From positions 1 to 61,570 of the IMG/VR virus record IMGVR_UViG_3300036853_000133: a stretch of 61,570 nucleotides of DNA. One strand, given 5' to 3'. This stretch comes from a virus. The translations under genes were made by a program, and so were the position numbers. Of the stretch, positions 45,979 to 57,751 are shown one piece after another (within the stretch, counting starts at the first letter, position 1; every line of letters starts with the position of its first letter). Below the pieces are notes generated by a model that was not told the origin of the DNA, made no database searches, and saw only the letters and a list, made by a program, of their open reading frames with translations.

Positions 45979-47969
45979 GTACCCAGCAAATTCAAGCGGC
46001 GTTGACGGCCAGGCATGCCCGCATTGGTGATCTGAACAGCCTGCGCAACAGCCGCACGCGCCGCAGCCGCGGACATTCGTGCAATCGTCTCATCCCCGTT
46101 CGCACCTTTGAGATCGACCGACATGCTGATATTGATCGGGCCTGAGTTTCCCCCGCCTGCCATCGCGACATTGTTCGGAATGATCTGCGCGCCCTTCGGC
46201 ACGTTCATCAGCTCCGGACCCCCCTCACCCACCCACGAAAGACCACCTGGCCAATTGTCGGTGCCGCCGGCATTGTGGCCGATCCCGCCCTGTCCGAGCA
46301 CGGCGCCACCAGGAAGAACACCTCCGCCCGCCCCGCCAAGAAGAGACCCCAGCGCATTCGCAAGCGGACCCACAATCGCCTGACGAATCGCAAGCCGTGC
46401 AAGATCACGCAGGATCGAGTTCGCCATGTCGCGAAAGCCGTCCGAAACAGATTTCGTCCCCGTGACGATATCGGCAAGTCCATCCGTGACCGTATTCACG
46501 CCGCTGGTTGCGAACTCATCGAGCCCCTTGCGGGCATTGCGGGCATCAAGCTCAAGCTGTTTGAGCCCCGGTAGGTAAGCTTGCCGAACCGTCAACGCGT
46601 CTGCCGCGTCTTTCGATTCACGCAAGATCACAACAGTCGCCCTCTGGACCTCGTTCTCGGTCAACCCGAACTTCACCTTGTCCTGCGCGAGCTGCGCGAG
46701 CTTCACATCAACGATCTGCTGTTCGGTCGCGACTGCAAGACGCTCGCGTGTTGCCAGCGCAGACGCCTTCATGGTCAGATTGAATGCAGCCAGCGCCCGC
46801 GATGCCGTGCCGTCGCTCAATCCACCCTTCTCCGCAGCCGCTGCGATCTCAAGGCGCTTCTGTTTCCATTGCTCGCCTTGCGTGATCGCATCGCCGATCA
46901 GCGCGAGATTCTTGCGCAGAATCTCCAGTTCTACGGACGGAGAACCTGCCCCCGTAGCTGCCGGCACAACCTCAGGAGTTCCTCCGGTCCTGATCCTGAG
47001 CGGTCCACCTGGCAGCGCGTCGAAGCGATCTGCGAACGACGCCGGCTGCGCCTCGCCGGTTGCTTTCGATCTCTCCTTTGCGGCCGTGATGCGCTCGACC
47101 AATTGCGCAATTGCGAGCAGGACTGTAGCAGAATCCTTCTCAAGGGTCAGGATCGCATCGGAAAACATCCCTCCCCAGATATTCTTGGTCTTCTTCTCGA
47201 TCGCCTCGATCTCAACGCGGAGCTGCGCCGCGCGCTCGATCTGTTTTTCATCAATCTTCGGGTTGTTCGCCTCCAGCCCGGTCAAGCCGCCTTGCTTGCC
47301 CAAAGTATCCAGGAGACGCACGCCGGCAAGCCCGGCCTTGCCGCCCGCCGCCTTTGCGATATCAAGCTTGTCCGTCTGGTTGTTGAGCTTGATGAATGCC
47401 GCGACCAGAAGATCAACGGCCTTCGCGCTGTCTTTAGTAGTCGACAGTTGCCGCAGTAGACCGGTGTCCACCTTCAGCAGCGCTTCGTAAAGCGGCCCCT
47501 GCCCTTCGCGAAGCTGGCCCAGATTGGCAATGAACTTGATGAAGAATGCCGATGTCTCCTCGAAATCCAGACCAACTGTCTTGCCGGCCGAACCGAGCTG
47601 CTTGAATTGATTGATCGACAGCCCGGCAGTGTCCGCGCCTTCCTTCAGCAGCTTGGCTTTATCGGCGAACTCCCCGGTCTTGCTTGCGAGAAATGTAATC
47701 GCTCCAGCGACGACGCCGATCGCAACTGCTGCAGCCGCACCTTTGCCGCCGAGCGACGACAGCAGATCGCCGAGAAAACCGATATTGCCCCTTGCTTGTG
47801 ACGAGACCGCGTTGAGTTTGTTGTTGATCGTCGTATTCAACGCAGAGAACTTGCCTTCGATCTCCTTGGTGCGCTTGTCGGCTATATCGACAGCGCCCTT
47901 CATATCCTTCTCGAACTTCGTCAGTTGCGCCGAAAGCGCGACCACGAGCGCTGCTGTATCATCAGCCAT
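45975..47969 (-). CDS. tape measure protein
   Basis: 664 residues. The N-terminus MADDTAALVVALSAQLTKFEKDMKGA is typical of alphaproteobacterial tape measures. Long helical stretches, hydrophobic segments (AAAAVAIGVVAGAITFLAS) and a lambda-H-like C-terminal part (GFRDMANSILRDLARLAIRQAIVGPLANALGSLLGG) follow. At about 0.15 nm per residue the tail would be near 100 nm. Longest minor tail gene, directly after the assembly chaperones. Confidence 0.88.
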   Translation of the reverse strand: MADDTAALVVALSAQLTKFEKDMKGAVDIADKRTKEIEGKFSALNTTINNKLNAVSSQARGNIGFLGDLLSSLGGKGAAAAVAIGVVAGAITFLASKTGEFADKAKLLKEGADTAGLSINQFKQLGSAGKTVGLDFEETSAFFIKFIANLGQLREGQGPLYEALLKVDTGLLRQLSTTKDSAKAVDLLVAAFIKLNNQTDKLDIAKAAGGKAGLAGVRLLDTLGKQGGLTGLEANNPKIDEKQIERAAQLRVEIEAIEKKTKNIWGGMFSDAILTLEKDSATVLLAIAQLVERITAAKERSKATGEAQPASFADRFDALPGGPLRIRTGGTPEVVPAATGAGSPSVELEILRKNLALIGDAITQGEQWKQKRLEIAAAAEKGGLSDGTASRALAAFNLTMKASALATRERLAVATEQQIVDVKLAQLAQDKVKFGLTENEVQRATVVILRESKDAADALTVRQAYLPGLKQLELDARNARKGLDEFATSGVNTVTDGLADIVTGTKSVSDGFRDMANSILRDLARLAIRQAIVGPLANALGSLLGGAGGGVLPGGAVLGQGGIGHNAGGTDNWPGGLSWVGEGGPELMNVPKGAQIIPNNVAMAGGGNSGPINISMSVDLKGANGDETIARMSAAAARAAVAQAVQITNAGMPGRQRRLNLLGT

Positions 47970-47977
47970 AAACGAAC

Positions 47978-48130
47978 CTATGCATCGCCGTGCGCGGCTT
48001 TCGCAGCTTCGAATTCTTCAGCGGTAGGCGCCTCAACCGCTTCTGCGTCTTGCGATTCGTTCCAGCCATCAACGCAGGCTGCATATTGAAAGAGGCTCAT
48101 TTCCCCGATCTGTTTCGGCGAAAAGCCCAT
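47978..48130 (-). CDS. second tail assembly chaperone-like protein
   Basis: 50 residues: MGFSPKQIGEMSLFQYAACV, then an acidic half (AVEAPTAEEFEAAKAAHGDA). It sits between chaperone gene and tape measure, where GTA-like modules have a short TIGR02216-type protein. It starts by TGATG overlap, so coupling replaces the frameshift used by lambda G/GT. Confidence 0.65.
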   Translation of the reverse strand: MGFSPKQIGEMSLFQYAACVDGWNESQDAEAVEAPTAEEFEAAKAAHGDA

Positions 48131-48528
48131 CACTGCGCCGTTTCGGTAGAAGGCGGCGACGGAGAGTCTTTGGCTCCCCGGCGCTTCCGACGCCGCCCTT
48201 CTTTTCCCACCGGTTCTTCCGGATCGCCCGCGAGCGCATTGAGTAGGATCGCCTGAGCGATCAGAACATTTGCTGTCAGGCGCCCTTCGCGCACGTTCTC
48301 GTCAACGAGCTTGCGCGCAGCGCCGCCATCCACGCCCGCGCCGATGAGACCGATGCGGATCGTTTCCTGCAAATCCTCAACGCGCCACATGCCTGTTTGC
48401 AGACGCACCAGGATTTCGTAAGGGCCGGAATCGCGCTTGACCTGCAGCGACAGAAGCTCCGCGATGCCTAGACGAAACTTCCGCTCATCCCCGGCCCAGA
48501 CGAGATCAACCGATCCGTCAAAGCTCAT
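48130..48528 (-). CDS. tail assembly chaperone (GTA gp10-like)
   Basis: 132 residues starting MSFDGSVDLVWAGDERKFRL; earlier in-frame codons are a shadow. RLGIAELLSLQVKRDSGPYEILVRLQTG and TIRIGLIGAG match the GTA TAC family. Overlaps the tail tube gene by ATGA. Confidence 0.8.
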   Translation of the reverse strand: MSFDGSVDLVWAGDERKFRLGIAELLSLQVKRDSGPYEILVRLQTGMWRVEDLQETIRIGLIGAGVDGGAARKLVDENVREGRLTANVLIAQAILLNALAGDPEEPVGKEGRRRKRRGAKDSPSPPSTETAQ

Positions 48529-48968
48529 GAGCCAGGAACGAAGGCAGAGAGCGCACCATCCGATTCCAGAGAAATGCTCGCTTGGGCATTGTCGTTGCGA
48601 TCGCCGTTGATCTCCCATCCGGTCAGATGGAAGGCGCCGCTCCAGTGCCCCATCGTGCCGAGATAGATCCGCACGTTGCGCGAGTCGACGTCGCGGAACC
48701 ATGCGTCATAGAAGCTGATCACTGCCGCCTTGTTGTCAAGCGTACCGGCGCCATCGATCGAAGCACTCAGGGCGTCCTTGATCGCCTCCGACCATGCAGG
48801 GTCTTCCGGATTGTCGCAATCCGGGATGATCACCTTGTTGGTACTGGACGCGAATTTGATTCCGCGCTTGGTGTTGATGAGGCAAGGATGCGCAAACACC
48901 TCCGGCGATGAACCATCGCCAACCTTGATATAGAGCTGTGTTCCCCGAAGCGGAGTAATCGCGACCAT
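48525..48968 (-). CDS. major tail (tube) protein
   Basis: 147 residues (PLRGTQLYIKVGDGSSPEVF, TNKVIIPDCDNPEDPAWSE, AAVISFYDAWFRDVDSRNVRI, LTGWEINGDRNDNAQASISLES). This is the pattern of HK97/GTA-type tail tube proteins. Position before the chaperones fits. Confidence 0.85.
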   Translation of the reverse strand: MVAITPLRGTQLYIKVGDGSSPEVFAHPCLINTKRGIKFASSTNKVIIPDCDNPEDPAWSEAIKDALSASIDGAGTLDNKAAVISFYDAWFRDVDSRNVRIYLGTMGHWSGAFHLTGWEINGDRNDNAQASISLESDGALSAFVPGS

Positions 48969-50140: not shown

Positions 50141-50326
50141 TCAGCGGCCAACGGGAAGAGCTTTGATGCGGTCAGATTGCGCCGGCTTTGTCATCCTGGC
50201 CTTGCCGGCCGCAATCGCCGCGTCGCCACAAGCCTGAGGAACGGCCATTTCCATGCCCTTCTTGTACGCAATTGTCGTTCTGGGGTTTGGATGCCAATCG
50301 AAGTCGGCGATGAATTTAACGCGCAT
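50141..50326 (-). CDS. small conserved phage protein
   Basis: 61 residues starting MRVKFIADFDWHPNPRTTIA. The VKF..DFDWxPxPxxTIAYK pattern with AIAAGKA is a short protein frequent in the head-connector region of rhizobial phages. Function unknown. Confidence 0.7.
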   Translation of the reverse strand: MRVKFIADFDWHPNPRTTIAYKKGMEMAVPQACGDAAIAAGKARMTKPAQSDRIKALPVGR

Positions 50327-51170
50327 GCTCGCCCCTGTAGCGTTCGAAAGCAGCAACGATCGAATGCCTGTCGTCGCTCTCCCATACCAAACGCTGCGTT
50401 TCCAGTGCACCAGGCACTTGCCCGCCGCGATCAATCCCGCTTGCAAAGAAATGAGAGCTACGCGCGGCAGGATTATTCGACTCATCATTGATCGGCCGAA
50501 AGATCAGGCAGGGCGCCCCAAGACCAATCGCCAGCCATGCCGGTCCGCTCGATACGAACAGATTGCAGAACGCAGACGCGTATAGATTGGCCCGCGCAAC
50601 TATGCCTGTTGAGGCTTGCGGTATAGTACGGAACCCGCCGATAGGCGTATGCGCCTGAAGGCTGTCCCGCACGAATAACACCTTGAACCCACTCCGCTGG
50701 ATCTCCCCTGCGGCATCAATCCATTCCTCTTTGTCACTGTTGCGCTCAGGCCAATGCTCACACTCACGAAGCGTGATCGTGACAAATCCCTTCTCGGCAA
50801 CCGGACAAGGAGCGCGCAGCGTCGCACCCGTCTTCGACATAGCCTCGACAAAGACTCCAAGCCCGTACAGACGATCAAGGTTTCCGATCGATGGAGCCTT
50901 CAGAGCCCCGCGTTCGCTGCGCTGTGCGCTAAGACACGACGGCAATAGCGAGCACATTGGCATGACGAGGTTGTTCAGCAGGCCTTCACGCTCGGCAACC
51001 GAAAACGGCCACAATCGATCACGCCGAAAACCGCCAACCGTACCTGGAAGAAACTCGACGCTGCAATGGGTTTCCTGACGCCTGATCCGCTCGCACTCCA
51101 CATGCAGCAGGAACGACACGAAGTCATATGTCGGGGGACACAGCGCAAGATCGTAATAAGCCGTCAGCAT
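50316..51170 (-). CDS. uncharacterised protein, possible glycosyltransferase-like fold
   Basis: 284 residues. The C-terminal region NLFVSSGPAWLAIGLGAPCLIFRPINDES has the nucleotide-sugar-binding feel of GT-B enzymes (heptosyltransferase-type FVSxxS...A..LGxPxL). The rest is unassigned. It is the last gene of the inserted glycan cassette and overlaps the small connector-region gene. Confidence 0.5.
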   Translation of the reverse strand: MLTAYYDLALCPPTYDFVSFLLHVECERIRRQETHCSVEFLPGTVGGFRRDRLWPFSVAEREGLLNNLVMPMCSLLPSCLSAQRSERGALKAPSIGNLDRLYGLGVFVEAMSKTGATLRAPCPVAEKGFVTITLRECEHWPERNSDKEEWIDAAGEIQRSGFKVLFVRDSLQAHTPIGGFRTIPQASTGIVARANLYASAFCNLFVSSGPAWLAIGLGAPCLIFRPINDESNNPAARSSHFFASGIDRGGQVPGALETQRLVWESDDRHSIVAAFERYRGEHAR

Positions 51171-52217
51171 TCAGGACCGACCTGAAGCAGATCGCGCATG
51201 CATCAGCAATCTGGAACTCGTGACCTCGACATCATGCCATTGCGCTTCATCGCTCACTTGGCGCTTGATCCGAAGCGCAGTTTCCGAGAACTTGATCTGC
51301 TGCGGATCGGCCCGATCCCCGACGAACCGGCGCAGGATCGCGTTTCTATTGCCACCCCGCATCCGTGAATCAACATGCGTGTCGTGCAGCGAGAACACCA
51401 TCACGTCATCTGAATCCACTGCATGCACGACCTTGCCGTTCTTTGCGATCTCTGACGTGTAGTGCCCATCGAGCGTGCCGTTCGTGATTCCCCGCTTGTA
51501 GTGCGCATCGTCGCGCTTTACCCGCAACACCAGCGCCGTCTGATGATAGGCCCGAACGACAGCCCCGTCTTCCCCGACCCGAAACAGCAGATATGATGGA
51601 AAATGTGTGAACGATGGCGCATCCCAATAACGATAGCTTGCCTCACGATGCAGCGAAGACAGACAGATATCCGCGAGCGCCCGCGGCGTTACATCGATCG
51701 TATCACCCGATCGCCATCCCTCAAGCGCAGCTTTGCCAACCTGCAAATCGACCGGCATGCAAAACCCGAGAACCGCATCGACATCGTCGCCTAACAACCG
51801 GACCGCACCAGGCAGCGCACCATTTGCCCAGACGAAATCCGCATAATTGAAGATCAGCGCGTCATGCTCGCCGGCCCGTACCATCGCGAGGTTCTGCAAC
51901 AGCGTCAGGAACCCGTACTTGCGAGCGTCCGTGTTGCTTGGTCCGTCACCCAGATCGAGATCTTCAAACCAGTCCCACGCAATCGTGCAATGCTCAGCAA
52001 GCCTCGCGATCACCGGCATTGCGTTCAGCTTCTGATAGTCCGCATACGATGTCGCGATATGAACCGTGATCGCGTTGTCGCGCGCAAGCGCCGGAAGATT
52101 CCCAGACGCAAGCAGACTTGCAAACGAAAACCGCGCCAACAGTTCAACGTTCTTGTCACCCCATGCGGCGACAGACAGGCAGATATTCACGACGCCATCT
52201 TCAAAACGCGATGCCAC
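51171..52217 (-). CDS. glycosyltransferase-like protein
   Basis: 348 residues. VNICLSVAAWGDKNVELLARFSF, NAITVHIATSYADYQKLN, HDALIFNYADFVWANGALPG and a VFSLHDTHVDSRMRGGN end. It resembles GT-A-type transferases with an acidic NYAD site in place of DxD. The tentative role is sugar transfer. It overlaps the GT2 gene by 31 bp. Confidence 0.5.
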   Translation of the reverse strand: MASRFEDGVVNICLSVAAWGDKNVELLARFSFASLLASGNLPALARDNAITVHIATSYADYQKLNAMPVIARLAEHCTIAWDWFEDLDLGDGPSNTDARKYGFLTLLQNLAMVRAGEHDALIFNYADFVWANGALPGAVRLLGDDVDAVLGFCMPVDLQVGKAALEGWRSGDTIDVTPRALADICLSSLHREASYRYWDAPSFTHFPSYLLFRVGEDGAVVRAYHQTALVLRVKRDDAHYKRGITNGTLDGHYTSEIAKNGKVVHAVDSDDVMVFSLHDTHVDSRMRGGNRNAILRRFVGDRADPQQIKFSETALRIKRQVSDEAQWHDVEVTSSRLLMHARSASGRS

Positions 52218-53311
52218 CCCGGAACGTCCACACCCGAACCGATCGCGCTCAAGACCTCGACAAGCGGAAGATCAGAGGCCTCGATCAGTTTGCGATTCTC
52301 ACGCGAGAGCGGCACGCCCTCCATCGCCTTCAAAAAGTCATCGGCCGAGATCGGCGGCAGCATGATATCGCTGATATCGCCCATCGCGTTCGTGGCGAAC
52401 CATCCCCACTTGTGCGCGATCTTGTTGCACATGAAGAGCTTGAACACCGCACGCATCATCGCATTGCGCAGCTCTATGAATTCCACATTGTCGCCGAACG
52501 CCGCGTTGATCGAGGCGACGCAATCCTGCAGATGCGCGAGCTGCGTTCCACGATGGCTGGCGTTGTTGCGGTCGACCGCCGTCATCACGCACGGCTCATC
52601 GAGATAATACACATCGCCCTGCGTCGCGGCGCCGGCCAGGATCGCGTATCCCGCCTGCCAGCGCACGCCGTCAGCGCGACCGAGCGAGCCCGACGCCTTG
52701 AACTTCACGGTATCGAACACCGTCGCGCCGATGACGATGTTGCGGTTCTTCGGATCTTGCGCGAAGAGCCTGAGATATTCGGTTCCGCGGATGAACCCCG
52801 GCGGGAAGAGCGTACCCCAGAACACCTGCGTCTTGTCGACGTCCAGGAACGAGTAGCTGACGTAATCCTCATTCGGAGCGAGCTTCGGCACGGGATGCGG
52901 ATAGCAATGCACCATGCCACCTTGGACGAACGCGATCGAGCGATGTTTGGTGAACGCTGCGACCGCTCTGCTGATCAGGTTCGTTGGCAACCAATAGTCG
53001 TCATCGCAGAGATAGACGAACATGTCGCCATCGCAGAATTCTTCCAGGAAACGCTTGATGATCGCAAGGTCGCCCGACTTCGAACCGACATTGACCTCGT
53101 TGCGAACGTAGCGAAGACGCGGGCTCACGAACTCGGCCACGACATGCGGCGTGTCATCCGCCGAACAATCGTCGATCACGACAACGTCAATGTTGTCGTA
53201 GTCCTGCGCCAGCACCGACGCCAGTGCGCGACGCAGCAGCGCTGACCGATTGAATGTCGTGATCAGAACAGAGACTTTTGGCGCCACGTTCGGAGCTTTG
53301 ACCGGATTCAT
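52187..53311 (-). CDS. family 2 glycosyltransferase
   Basis: 374 residues. The GT2 N-terminus is clear: KVSVLITTFNRSALLRRALASVLAQDYDNIDVVVIDDCSADDT (about 12-55), with the metal-binding CDDDY (DxD-type) near 103. The C-terminal half (about 220-374) is a separate helical region. It would transfer a sugar from a nucleotide-sugar donor. ATGA-coupled to the O-methyltransferase gene upstream. Confidence 0.88.
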   Translation of the reverse strand: MNPVKAPNVAPKVSVLITTFNRSALLRRALASVLAQDYDNIDVVVIDDCSADDTPHVVAEFVSPRLRYVRNEVNVGSKSGDLAIIKRFLEEFCDGDMFVYLCDDDYWLPTNLISRAVAAFTKHRSIAFVQGGMVHCYPHPVPKLAPNEDYVSYSFLDVDKTQVFWGTLFPPGFIRGTEYLRLFAQDPKNRNIVIGATVFDTVKFKASGSLGRADGVRWQAGYAILAGAATQGDVYYLDEPCVMTAVDRNNASHRGTQLAHLQDCVASINAAFGDNVEFIELRNAMMRAVFKLFMCNKIAHKWGWFATNAMGDISDIMLPPISADDFLKAMEGVPLSRENRKLIEASDLPLVEVLSAIGSGVDVPGWHRVLKMAS

Positions 53312-54081
53312 GCGTGCGAGAACCCCAAAACGCGCGCCAGATGTTGCGCCGGGAGCGGATGATCCTCAACTCCCGCTGCTGCGCGATACACGATCAGCAA
53401 ACCATTGCCGATCGGGAGCAGTAGCGTTCCGATGTCGGACCTGCCCTGATAGTGGTTCAGCAGATCGCGACAACCCACGCCCTTCGCCGTCGTCGGCTCC
53501 TTGTTGAGCGCATCGCCATGAAAAAAGACATCGTCGACAACGAGCATCCCACTTTCGCTCAACAACGCCTCGCACGTCTGCGCGGCCACCAGATAGTCTT
53601 GCTTGCCGCCATCGAGAAAGATCAGATCGAACTTGTGCGGCAACATCGCAAGGCTGGCCAGCACCGATCTTCCTTCCCCCTCCATCAGCGTGATGCGGTC
53701 CGACAGACCGTTGGCGGAGAAATTCTGTTCGGCCAGATGTGCGAACTCCGAGCCGCATTCGATCGTCACGATACGCGCATCCTCACCCGCAGCCTTGACC
53801 AGATGCATGGTCGTGTGACCGATGAAGGTCCCGATCTCGAGGATCGACTTTGCACCCGTCGCCTTGATGAGGAACACCAGCAGCGACAACGCCGCGGGCG
53901 TGCTGCTCATTTCCTCAAAGCCGACATGCGCTGGTGTCTTCAGACGGAATTGGTCCGGCGAACGACCCGCTGAAAACTCCATCACAGATCGCGCGATCGC
54001 CAGGCTGTATCCTCCACCCTCGAAAAGGCGCGAAAAATACGGCTGCGTCGGCAGCACCTTGTCGCAATAGCGGATCGACAT
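53308..54081 (-). CDS. class I SAM-dependent O-methyltransferase
   Basis: 257 residues starting MSIRYCDKVLPTQPYFSRLF. SAM-binding motif ILEIGTFIGHTTMHLVKAAG, acidic strand IVTIECGSEFAHLAEQN and FDLIFLDGGKQDYL match the catechol/caffeoyl-CoA-type O-methyltransferase family. Likely methylates a sugar or small molecule linked to the adjacent GT2 product. First gene of the glycan cassette in transcription order. Confidence 0.85.
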   Translation of the reverse strand: MSIRYCDKVLPTQPYFSRLFEGGGYSLAIARSVMEFSAGRSPDQFRLKTPAHVGFEEMSSTPAALSLLVFLIKATGAKSILEIGTFIGHTTMHLVKAAGEDARIVTIECGSEFAHLAEQNFSANGLSDRITLMEGEGRSVLASLAMLPHKFDLIFLDGGKQDYLVAAQTCEALLSESGMLVVDDVFFHGDALNKEPTTAKGVGCRDLLNHYQGRSDIGTLLLPIGNGLLIVYRAAAGVEDHPLPAQHLARVLGFSHA

Positions 54082-54092
54082 GCAAAACCCTG

Positions 54093-54704
54093 TCAGCGAT
54101 AGACGCGCAGCTTGTCGCAAAGAGATTTCACGCCAGGCGCCAGATTGGACAGCGCTCCCACCGTCGTCTCTTCGCGGTTTTCGTACCAATGCCCGACCAG
54201 CAGAAGCACAGCGGCACGGGCGAGATATGGCAAGCGCAAATCCGGATCGTCGCCCGTTCCGGTATGGCCCGGCACGTCAAACCCCGCATCGAAGGTCACG
54301 AACACCGTATCGCGCCGCTCATTGAGAAGCGTTGGCCATGAATACGACCGCACGAACGAGACCGTTCCCTTGCCCTGCGTGTTCCGCCGCCACATCCATT
54401 GATCCGCGGCGATCGTCTGTTCCGCGCCGTTCGCATCCAAATATTTGACGCTCTCGACATCGCGCACGGGCGCTGCCGGCAGATCGAGGTCATGGCAGCA
54501 ATGACACGGCCAGCCTTCCATCCGGAACTGAACGGTTGCCGGCGCAAGCCTAAGGTTGGTCTCACTCTCCACGAACTCGATCGCGGTCCTCAGATAGACC
54601 TCGATCATCACATCGTCATCGGTAAAATCAGCCGTGCGCGTGTGCGCCTTGGCTTCCGCCATCGACACTGCAAGTTCTGAGGCCGGTATGATCGTTGCCA
54701 GCAT
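54093..54704 (-). CDS. HK97 gp6-like head-tail connector
   Basis: 203 residues from ATG 54704 (ATG 54719 also possible). IIPASELAVSMAEAKAHTRTADFTDDDVMIEVYLRTAIEFVE and ARAAVLLLVGHWYENREETTVG are diagnostic for the gp6-like connector family. It forms the ring under the portal. The 5' end overlaps the frameshifted frame ending at 54628. Confidence 0.85.
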   Translation of the reverse strand: MLATIIPASELAVSMAEAKAHTRTADFTDDDVMIEVYLRTAIEFVESETNLRLAPATVQFRMEGWPCHCCHDLDLPAAPVRDVESVKYLDANGAEQTIAADQWMWRRNTQGKGTVSFVRSYSWPTLLNERRDTVFVTFDAGFDVPGHTGTGDDPDLRLPYLARAAVLLLVGHWYENREETTVGALSNLAPGVKSLCDKLRVYR

Positions 54705-55577
54705 CGAGCGCAGCCTCAAGTGTTGCGAACGGAAACGCAGTCAGTGCGGAATCAGGATTGGCGTTGAAGACTCTCACACCAAGCACATCAAGATCAGGCG
54801 CCGCTGCATGGAAGGCGCGGCGCCAACGAAACAGATTCGCCTCACTCGGATTGTTCAGGCCGCGCTGGTGACGGCCGTGCCAGTGAATTCCGCGGTCAAG
54901 CCGCATGTCGAAGCCGACAAGGATGATCTTCGAGGCTCCGAACTGAACCACAATATTGAGCGCCTGGAACCCTGAGTTACCGCCATCCCCAACAACACCA
55001 GCACGGGCCGTGAGTATCCGATCCGATTGCTCTTCAACCGTGATGTTGTTCAGCGCCAGAAATTGAGTGCATGCGCCGTTGTCGTTGGTGATCTTCGTTC
55101 CTGAAAACTCCGGAACTCCCTCTCGCGCCTTCCACCAATTGCCGTCGCATCCGTAGAGAACATCAGCCCATGGACACAGCCGCCACGATTCGTTGATGGC
55201 TATAAATCGAGCGCACCCGCGGAACGCTTCGAGGTTTGCCGACGCGGCTGACGGACCTGATCCGACGATGATGGCGCACTCGCCGCGCCAGTCTCGCCAC
55301 CAGCCGAAGCTAAAGGGCCGGATGTGGCCGCCTTGTTCTGTGGCGCCGGCTCCATCTTGTTGACCGGCAAGGGCGCCATCTTGTCGGCGCGAATTTCATC
55401 CAGCTTCGACGCAGGAAGCGGAACAGCAAGACCTGCGCGCTCCATCTCGTTAGCGCGGGGCTCAGTGGCACAGAAAAATTCAGAGCCGGCATCAATGTAC
55501 CAGGTTCCGTCCGGCTGCTGGACGCCCTCGCCTGGACTGCCGTTGTAGGATTTCAGGGCCTTCATTCGGATTCGCAT
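54628..55577 (-). CDS. predicted -1 frameshift fusion: capsid-region protein plus MptE/DUF115-like domain
   Basis: Predicted 316-residue product. Residues 1-89 come from the 55200-55577 gene; a -1 slip at 55317-55311 then enters the frame ending at 54628. The second part begins SFGWWRDWRGECAIIVGSGPSA and continues with RFIAINESWRLCPWADVLYG, GGNSGFQALNIVVQFGASKIILVGFDM and GIHWHGRHQRGLNNP. This is a Rossmann-like phage protein with the GxGPSA motif of MptE/DUF115-type domains, some of which occur in Maf flagellin glycosyltransferases. The downstream frame has no ATG, GTG or TTG before GTG 54951, which is inside the conserved domain. Either frameshifting, a non-standard start or a sequencing indel must explain it. 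Confidence 0.6.
55200..55577 (-). CDS. small capsid-region protein, zero-frame product
   Basis: 125 residues (MRIRMKALKSYNGSPGEGVQ, PDGTWYIDAGSEFFCATEPRANEMERAGLA). The first 60 residues look like a conserved head-region protein. From about residue 85 the sequence becomes low-complexity Ser/Ala/Gln because it is an out-of-frame reading of the downstream domain. ATG 55565 is an alternative start. It lies just after the major capsid gene. Confidence 0.7.
   Translation of the reverse strand: MRIRMKALKSYNGSPGEGVQQPDGTWYIDAGSEFFCATEPRANEMERAGLAVPLPASKLDEIRADKMAPLPVNKMEPAPQNKAATSGPLASAGGETGAASAPSSSDQVRQPRRQTSKRSAGALDL
55311..55317 (-). promoter_or_regulatory. candidate -1 ribosomal frameshift heptamer C-CCT-TTA
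   Basis: In the zero frame codons 87-89 read GGC CCT TTA, so CCCTTTA has the X-XXY-YYZ phase required for simultaneous -1 slippage (Pro CCT to CCC, Leu TTA to TTT). The next codon after slipping is AGC of the open downstream frame. About 28 nt further a hairpin TGGCGC-ggcgagt-GCGCCA could slow ribosomes, though its spacing is longer than usual. Confidence 0.6.
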
Positions 55578-55653: not shown

Positions 55654-57012
55654 TTACGTCGTCGCCTGGAAAGTGCCGTAGATGAAGGCTTGCGGCCGAT
55701 AAATCGCGAGGGCGAGCCGCTCTTCCGCGCGGATCGTGACGAGGTTCTTCACGAAGTTGTCGTTGTCTTCGGTCGACACCTCGACGTTCGCGTCTTCGCG
55801 ATCGAACACCTGGGCACCCAGCTTGAACGCGCCGGTCAAGAACTTGGTCACGGTCATTGCCGGGGTTGCAACGACAGGGCGGCCCCAAAGCGTCGGAGAC
55901 GTGACGGTCTGCGGGTTGGTGAAGATATAGCGCCCCTCGTTGTCTTTCGTCAGCTCGATACGCGCCCAGTCGGTCGGGTTGATGACGATGCCGGTAGCCG
56001 GCAGCAACGCCAATTCAGACTGAAGGATCGCCAAACGAATGGCGTCGATGCGGTTCGGAGTTTCCGGCGCGAACGCCGCCGAATATGCGGTCGCCTGCGT
56101 GACAAGGCCGCTGAGATGATTGCCAAGGCCAGAGCCCAGCAGCAACTCGGCTTCCTCCACGTAGGCGAGACCGTAACGCAGACGGCCGTCGATCTGCGAC
56201 TGCAACTGCGGAAGATCGTCCAGGATCTGCTTGGATGCGCGAATCCAGTGCGCGATCGTCGCGACGTTGGCGGTCACGAGCTGATCGACAAGCGTCGACT
56301 CCGGCTTCGTGACGCCTTCCGAGACGACCGCGGCGTTGTTCGTGAACGAGGTCTCCTGCACGTATTGCACCGCATTCGAGTTGGTGCGACCAGGCGTGAG
56401 AAGATCGCGCACCGTCATGCGACGTTCCGGCGGGATGAGTACGCCGGGCTGACGATCCGGGGCCACAACGGCGCCGGTCATCGACGCAGTCGTGATCGCC
56501 TTCACGTCGATGCGAACGCGACCGCGGGCCTTGCTGCTCTCCGCAGCGAACTGCTTGACCTTGTCGTTAGCGACGAACTGTTCGCCCGGGGACATCTCCT
56601 CGATCGTGCGTTCGTGCTTGTGGCCGCCAGCCATCTTCTGTTCGAGTTCAGATGTGCGCGCCTTCAGCTCGTTGATCGTATCCGGCATCTTCGCCAGATC
56701 CTCGATCTGCTTGCGCAGCTCGCCCTGCTCGGCGATGGCCTTGTCGGTCTTCTCCTTGAGGTCGCCCGTGATCTTGTCGCCGGCCTCGCTCTTGGTCTTG
56801 TACTCCTTGCCGAATTCCTTGACCTGGCCGGTGACCTCATCGAGCTTCTTCGTCAGCGCAATGATGTCGTCGGCCGTGAAGCCGCCGCCGCTTCCGTCTT
56901 CGGCCTTGAAACAGATTTGCGGACGGCCAATCTGCCGCATTCCTGTCGGCACGGCACAAAGCCATGCGGCGCCGCCCGACATCAGGGCCGCGTGCAAAAT
57001 CAGATTCTTCAT
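55654..57012 (-). CDS. major capsid protein (HK97 fold)
   Basis: 452 residues from ATG 57012. Residues about 40-150 are a charged coiled-coil scaffold (delta) domain (KKLDEVTGQVKEFGKEYKTK). The HK97 shell domain follows: LIPPERRMTVRDLLTPGRTN, ETSFTNNAAVVSEGVTKPES, VATIAHWIRASKQILDDLPQL, GIVINPTDWARIELTKDNEG, GAFKLGAQVFDREDANVEVS. The first 25 residues are hydrophobic (MKNLILHAALMSGGAAWLCA), odd for a scaffold; another start may be used. Confidence 0.92.
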   Translation of the reverse strand: MKNLILHAALMSGGAAWLCAVPTGMRQIGRPQICFKAEDGSGGGFTADDIIALTKKLDEVTGQVKEFGKEYKTKSEAGDKITGDLKEKTDKAIAEQGELRKQIEDLAKMPDTINELKARTSELEQKMAGGHKHERTIEEMSPGEQFVANDKVKQFAAESSKARGRVRIDVKAITTASMTGAVVAPDRQPGVLIPPERRMTVRDLLTPGRTNSNAVQYVQETSFTNNAAVVSEGVTKPESTLVDQLVTANVATIAHWIRASKQILDDLPQLQSQIDGRLRYGLAYVEEAELLLGSGLGNHLSGLVTQATAYSAAFAPETPNRIDAIRLAILQSELALLPATGIVINPTDWARIELTKDNEGRYIFTNPQTVTSPTLWGRPVVATPAMTVTKFLTGAFKLGAQVFDREDANVEVSTEDNDNFVKNLVTIRAEERLALAIYRPQAFIYGTFQATT

Positions 57013-57028
57013 CGCTGTGAGTCCTTTT

Positions 57029-57751
57029 TCAGATTTCCAGTTGGGTGAAGCTGTCGACGCGCTTGCGGAAATCCGCGAGCGCCTTTGCGACAGCAGGATT
57101 CGCCTCATCACCCCCAGACTCACTCCGGATGGCCTTCGCATAACCGACAGAGGCGATCTGTACGGCCATACTCTTCGGGACCCCTGCCTCACGCAGGATG
57201 TCCTCAAATTCCTTGGTGGGAAGCGGCTCGCCGTCGCGTAGTTTTCGCGCCAGAATTTCCAGCTTGCCCCATGCGTCGCTCTTCACAGCCTCTACCAATG
57301 CGCGGCGATTGGCCGGAAACGAAACGATGGATACTTCCATCAGATCGAGCTTGATCAGCTTGCGCGGCTCACCATCCTTCGATGGCTCAACATCAACTTC
57401 CCGGTATCCGATCGACATGCCGCGAACGGCCTTCGCCTTGAGCAACGCATGCGTCTTGTCAGCAGTTGGGACATTTTGATTGATCAGCAGCCCGCCTTCG
57501 GAATAGAGCCCCTTGCCATCGTCGGAGAAGTCATCCCAGACGCCGATCGGCTCATCCGAATTGTGCTGCCATAGCATCAACGGATAGCTTCCTTCGCGCT
57601 TATGACGCGCGAGAGAGTCCGAGAACGCGCCGGGAAGCACGACCTCGTTGTAACTGTCCCTGACGTTGAACACGGAAGCATAGCCCTTCAGCTTCCCGGC
57701 TTCGTCAAGAGCCTTGACTTCGAACCCGAATGCTTTGGTTTTCATCGTCAT
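57029..57751 (-). CDS. prohead protease (S78/HK97 type)
   Basis: 240 residues. KGYASVFNVRDSYNEVVLPGAF, LMLWQHNSDEPIG with the catalytic His of the QH motif, AVRGMSIGYRE with the catalytic Ser, and LMEVSIVSFPANRRA. It cleaves the capsid delta domain during maturation. ATGA-type overlap with the portal gene. Confidence 0.92.
   Translation of the reverse strand: MTMKTKAFGFEVKALDEAGKLKGYASVFNVRDSYNEVVLPGAFSDSLARHKREGSYPLMLWQHNSDEPIGVWDDFSDDGKGLYSEGGLLINQNVPTADKTHALLKAKAVRGMSIGYREVDVEPSKDGEPRKLIKLDLMEVSIVSFPANRRALVEAVKSDAWGKLEILARKLRDGEPLPTKEFEDILREAGVPKSMAVQIASVGYAKAIRSESGGDEANPAVAKALADFRKRVDSFTQLEI

Follow-up and report, generated by a model that had tools for sequence, protein, structure and literature searches.

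How can a phage make a protein domain whose reading frame offers no start codon ahead of it? The question is raised by the window, a stretch of 61,570 nucleotides (positions 1 to 61,570 of the metagenomic virus record IMGVR_UViG_3300036853_000133 from IMG/VR). Between its genes for an HK97-type major capsid protein and a gp6-like head-tail connector, just after the former, lies a small ORF (the 0 frame), which is overlapped in the -1 relation by a second frame encoding a glycosyltransferase (GT)-like domain; the connector gene overlaps the 3' end of this -1 frame (Table 1). The first-pass annotation had proposed that the two frames are joined by programmed -1 frameshifting. On re-reading the minus strand we agree that the -1 frame has no ATG, GTG or TTG before position 54951, and the slippery heptamer C-CCT-TTA was found in the claimed zero-frame phase at 55317-55311, where CCCTTTA reads GGC CCT TTA in the 0 frame and CCC TTT in the -1 frame. 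Tandem slippage at this site is computed to give a product of 89 + 227 = 316 residues with the junction TSGPL-SFGWW, the same fusion as had been claimed, and the two motifs pointed out downstream, GSGPSA and WHGRHQRGLNNP, are both present and conserved among homologues. Judging from comparison of these sequences across the family, a conserved programmed -1 ribosomal frameshift very probably links the small head-region protein to the GT-like domain.

Table 1. Features of the frameshift locus and its neighbours, in window coordinates.
Feature	Position	Strand	Evidence or remarks
Preceding gene, HK97-type major capsid protein	55654..57207	-	Pfam Phage_capsid, E 5e-57
0-frame ORF, small head-region protein	55200..55577	-	125 aa: N-domain, disordered linker, basic tail; stop TAG 55200-55202
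N-domain, residues 1-55, small beta-rich fold, phrog_2616/DUF7210-like	55413..55577	-	AlphaFold2 model
-1 frame, open	54628-55395	-	First ATG/GTG/TTG is GTG at 54951
SD-like AAGGCGG, candidate stimulator	55328..55334	-	Ends 10 nt upstream of slip; duplex with anti-SD about -6.9 kcal/mol
Slippery heptamer C CCT TTA, 0-frame phase	55311..55317	-	Sequence; in-phase motif in relatives
-1 frame past slip, predicted MAF/GT42-like glycosyltransferase domain	54628..55316	-	phrog_4603, E 5e-47
Predicted GC-rich stem, weak candidate stimulator	55245..55310	-	Downstream of slip; window z -0.9
Next gene, gp6-like head-tail connector	54093..54719	-	Pfam Phage_connect_1, E 2e-6; phrog_442, E 4e-24

The domain encoded by the -1 frame matches phrog_4603, labelled alpha-2,3-sialyltransferase, and gives a weak match to MptE-like in Pfam; when the domain profile was run by sequence against solved structures, no meaningful match came back. 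Modelled by AlphaFold2 with a 60-sequence alignment, it forms one compact domain (pLDDT 92 over 229 residues) whose structural neighbours are the Magnetospirillum MAF glycosyltransferase (5mu5, Z 14.9), Campylobacter CstII of family GT42 (1ro8, Z 13.2) and the Methanocaldococcus MptE-type HPPK (8sd5, Z 12.1). This refines the description of the domain as MptE/DUF115-like, the model being closer in fold to the MAF (DUF115)/GT42 glycosyltransferases than to MptE alone. With GT42 sialyltransferases, MAF and MptE it shares the predicted fold over most of the domain (Z 12 to 15), the GxGPS motif and the phrog_4603 label, at just 11-16% identity. That it transfers a sugar is something we infer more weakly. 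In the model the first strand begins at residue 14 while the first candidate start falls at residue 123, deep inside the fold, so initiation at GTG 54951 would yield half a domain. Among related loci pN/pS is about 0.49 for the positions of window residues 40-107, which lie ahead of any start codon; by this sequence measure, the start-less region is under constraint at the protein level.

Single-sequence scans of viral and genome contigs found no homologous loci. A five-sequence profile search gave 80 + 34 = 114 loci, to which phage records were then added, and the set analysed comprises 98 non-redundant loci. We called a layout strictly frameshifted if the 35 codons preceding the domain contain no start and a long ORF overlaps in the -1 relation, as is the case in 48 of the 98. 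For slip-site counts we used 53 loci, namely these 48 without L122 and with six more (L003, L020, L069, L112, L113 and L124) in which the start is distant or doubtful, or the upstream ORF is shorter. When an HMM of the roughly 40-residue N-domain was run over the three forward frames of the loci, it found the N-domain immediately ahead of the GT-like domain in 39 of 98; the two stand in the -1 relation in 38 of these and share one frame in the remaining locus, with no case of +1. The in-frame case is a natural fusion within one ORF (L058), matching phrog_2616 at residues 1-39 and phrog_4603 at 81-267. The -1 relation and the missing start also recur in isolates, including the classic Pseudomonas phage D3, PMG1, S20, Paracoccus denitrificans DSM 413, Ensifer, Filomicrobium and Bordetella. 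Aligning homologues, a check suggested by the first-pass annotation, found the in-phase slippery motif and the missing start conserved in divergent isolates and viral contigs.

These counts bear on the main alternative that had been named, a sequencing error of one base in CCCTTT, and on its close variants, an assembly error or a recent indel there, any of which would split one ORF or bring two ordinary genes into this arrangement. CCCTTT is homopolymer-like, the window comes from a metagenomic record, and one related record, Pseudomonas phage PACT201, looks error-ridden in this region. Against this, the same -1 relation and missing start are found in dozens of independently sequenced loci, isolates included, and a one-base error cannot explain why 38 of 39 loci hold the -1 relation, with a single in-frame case and none in +1. 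The conserved frame and site exclude such an error as a general explanation, and we consider it extremely unlikely here. In PACT201 (L010) the frames break repeatedly in the head region, apparently through many indels, and the record was excluded from use.

Could the GT-like domain instead be translated separately, from a non-standard start or by re-initiation? Many homologues in an alternative layout do have an ATG that overlaps the stop of the previous gene, with a normal start near the core of the domain. The first-pass annotation had named homologues with a normal ATG as a case against frameshifting; they exist, but behind another gene, which among the upstream ORFs examined mostly resembles the gp6 connector and not the N-domain. 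In a quick tree of the GT-like domain the two layouts are interleaved, with at least 15 changes between them, four of which are forced by well supported branches. For the frameshift layout, separate initiation is improbable: it would neither hold the -1 frame in 38 of 39 loci nor keep CCCT or CCCTTT, or swap in other in-phase slippery motifs, and none of the 48 strict loci offers an ATG, GTG or TTG in the 35 codons ahead of the domain. Re-initiation would come too late for the whole fold, since the 0 frame runs on to a stop well within the domain. This stop has a signature of its own, as codons of the form xTA in the -1 frame, which make a 0-frame stop, are enriched about 10 to 34 codons past the core (17% versus 7% in the 53 loci), which hints that selection may also act on where the short product ends.

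A programmed frameshift should leave its mark at the slip site. The chance of one strict heptamer within about 30 codons is roughly 1 in 8, unremarkable by itself. We scored the interval 22 to 6 codons ahead of the core in the 53 frameshift-layout loci. CCCT occurs in the slip phase in 36 of them, compared with 0 and 2 in the other two phases, and CCCTTT in 17, compared with 0 and 0. In other windows of the same loci the background was 5.1% for same-phase CCCT and 0/530 for CCCTTT; unlike a single heptamer, the in-phase recurrence of CCCTTT at this place does stand out from chance. Binomial P values for these counts assume independent loci, though the loci are related, and the contrast between phases is the fairer measure. 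The -1 frame of Tetraselmis virus S20 begins right at the heptamer (TGA|CCC TTT) and has no start before the domain. D3 and PMG1 carry C CCA AAG at the equivalent place, and other loci have GGGAAAA (L111), GGGAAAG (L112) or AAAAAAA (L094) in the same phase. About 25 of the 53 have solely the weaker C_CC.Y tetramer, and a mostly gamma- and betaproteobacterial group has C CCY alone. Relatives thus differ in motif yet retain the frame relation, which is the pattern expected under selection for frameshifting. No recognisable slip motif was found within the scored interval in seven of the 53 loci (L023, L035, L044, L049, L055, L088 and Psp6); of these seven only Psp6 has such a site farther upstream (TTTTTTG).

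The long A run of L094 also brings up transcriptional, rather than ribosomal, slippage as the source of the frame change. Long homopolymer runs are the usual substrate of transcriptional slippage; CCCTTT, CCCAAA and GGGAAA contain none, and the phase of the motif fits tandem tRNA slippage, which makes a transcriptional origin most improbable. The ribosomal reading agrees with published measurements in E. coli (PMC4066793), where C_CC.A_AA.G had the top efficiency among 64 heptamers, C_CC.U_UU.N heptamers shifted, and the tetramers C_CC.U and C_CC.C shifted weakly. The CCCTTT motifs are, however, moderate in E. coli, whose tRNAs may not match those of the host.

Candidate stimulators flank the slip site on both sides. 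Upstream, the family mean of the anti-SD pairing energy has two dips, one 9 nt and one 18-22 nt ahead of the slip, where it reaches about -3 kcal/mol, compared with about -1 elsewhere, and strong anti-SD matches number 32 at the site versus 9 to 25 of 46 in control windows; part of this SD-like signal may stem from purine-rich linker codons. Downstream, a stem does fold where a GC hairpin had been claimed, but it is less striking than stated, at -23.5 kcal/mol just 0.9 SD below dinucleotide shuffles. Across 44 loci the downstream region folds with a mean z of -1.10, versus -0.66 to 0.00 at control offsets, and in loci without the frameshift layout the mean z is -0.32. RNA structure therefore lends modest support to frameshifting.

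The layout, its phase, its conservation, the missing starts and the natural fusion can be read directly in the sequences, while the occurrence and rate of slippage are judged from conservation and the published E. coli motif data. On this basis we propose that most ribosomes would finish the 125-aa protein at the 0-frame stop, and that a minority would re-pair one base back at C CCT TTA, onto CCC TTT, and from there read the -1 frame, probably aided by the SD-like AAGGCGG. The predicted frameshift product would consist of N-domain, linker and MAF/GT42-like glycosyltransferase domain. In four loci (L117, L123, L125 and L127) the GT-like frame runs in-frame into a further C-terminal region, which matches phrog_6804 in the two scanned (L123 and L125); from sequence, the predicted frameshift product of these loci would bear two enzyme-like domains.

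What the N-domain contributes is less clear-cut. AlphaFold2 modelled the 0-frame product with a pLDDT of about 95 over residues 1-50 and lower values beyond, the remainder being disordered. Of 33 N-domain family members, 30 match phrog_2616, and some match phrog_2322, labelled head-tail connector, and DUF7210/DUF7302; in Pfam these DUFs fit some family members alone, and nothing was found for the window's own N-domain. Among solved structures the model matches lambda gpFI in its C-terminal domain (Z 5.8; 45 residues at 22% identity), in a tie with GINS B domains and with ribosomal and other small folds. The genes share their place after the capsid gene, whereas in the window the domain is N-terminal with the linker behind it. 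In lambda, gpFI was found bound to the gpE lattice (PMC4856287). The 'structural protein' labels of PAJU2 ORF010 and the Eowyn homologue have no traceable experiment behind them and were left out as evidence.

The N-domain also occurs on other proteins. In two loci a second copy lies downstream of the GT-like domain, fused in-frame in L043 to a protein matching phrog_6804, a family in which one of the D3-like relatives carries the annotation glycosyltransferase family 9, and heading another protein in-frame in L047. In BFVD the N-domain model finds its best match in a phage protein that bears the name glycosyl transferase family 1. From these cases the N-domain looks like a reusable N-terminal module of glycosyltransferase-like proteins. 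We also considered window genes 51171-52217 and 50316-51170 as likenesses of the N-domain partners in L047 and L043, but BLASTP gave no support. Between the connector and the tail genes, the window encodes an O-methyltransferase, a family 2 glycosyltransferase and two further proteins (50316-54189, minus strand); comparable enzyme cassettes come after the GT-like domain in S20, PMG1 and P1.

If it acts as gpFI does, the N-domain would bind the head lattice and bring a limited dose of enzyme to the assembling head, a dosing by frameshift that we liken to Gag carrying Pol. The place of the gene after the capsid gene, the gpFI-like fold and the presence of the N-domain on other glycosyltransferase-like proteins speak for such delivery of the 316-aa protein, to which we give about an even chance; GT-domain homologues that lack the N-domain, the nonessential P1 pmgO and a gpFI likeness tied with unrelated small folds count against the proposal. 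A competing view accepts the fusion and places its role away from the capsid: the small protein would be a regulatory or packaging factor, the GT-like domain would have its targets in the host cell (surface sugars, for instance), and the frameshift would merely set its level. GT-like homologues indeed stand alone in Caulobacter phages, in layouts that lack the N-domain and in P1, where the gene has its own start and lies among 'pmg' genes; the fold match of the N-domain is also weak. Against this view, the locus is part of the head gene cluster, head-tail connector is the label of some N-domain family members, and the N-domain is joined to several glycosyltransferase-like partners; we rate this competing view a serious contender, slightly short of even. 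More broadly, tailed phages may widely use a Gag-Pol-like device in which a capsid-binding domain carries GT-like enzymes, at a dose set by frameshifting, to modify the head during assembly, with the same anchor also fused in-frame to other enzymes. We offer this idea tentatively and lean somewhat against it. Gag-Pol itself serves as a working analogy, a particle-building domain plus an enzyme at a -1-frameshift dose, without homology; on the phage side head binding and enzyme activity are predictions.

Frameshifting that adds domains to phage head proteins is known. The added domains are mostly Ig-like, as in Lactobacillus phage A2 and T3 gene 10, and T7 gene 10B is a further case of -1 frameshifting (PMC5009743); an enzyme-like one, which the first-pass annotation had also taken to be new, does look new. 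These systems share with the window a head-region protein made in a short form and a rarer, C-terminally extended form by -1 frameshifting, but in those systems it is the major capsid protein that receives an extension, Ig-like or short, whereas here a separate small protein gains a GT-like, Rossmann-type domain. An Ig-like extension was rejected for the window since the modelled domain has an alpha/beta GT42/MAF-like fold. The G/GT tail chaperones likewise have a -1 slippery site in a phage morphogenesis gene, and differ in gene, in place (here the head) and in domain content; we rejected a tail assembly chaperone identity because the gene lies between capsid and connector and not between tail tube and tape measure. 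Elsewhere in the window, a probable tail assembly chaperone ORF contains G GGA AAA in 0-frame phase (48202-48208, minus strand, in region 47969-48800), and the -1 frame continues from there, upstream of a gene resembling tape measure genes; this site is a candidate G/GT frameshift of the classical kind. P1 pmgO and P7 hdmB belong to the same GT-like family but have their own start codon and another gene neighbourhood; pmgO was nonessential in a CRISPRi screen (PMC10695390). In the papers searched on phage frameshifting, PmgO/PmgP, D3 and virion glycosylation, we found no prior report of a frameshift-added GT-like domain on a small head-region protein. The passages found in the GeneTack and Sharma surveys (main texts) do not mention this frameshift either.

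The finding would add a conserved recoding event to phage head genes, one that is unannotated even in D3 and PMG1. The public records of D3, PMG1 and S20 list separate genes, and since the GT-like gene is started at internal codons in D3 orf7 (L004) and S20 TVGG_00049 (L002), the annotated domain is truncated there; members of the family that bears the label 'alpha-2,3-sialyltransferase' are often given an internal start or overlooked. The CCCTTT, CCCAAA, GGGAAA and AAAAAA variants across relatives offer ready material for testing what drives -1 frameshifting in bacteria. Should the fusion reach the head, a phage would have in it a simple means of supplying its own capsid with an enzyme in low copy.
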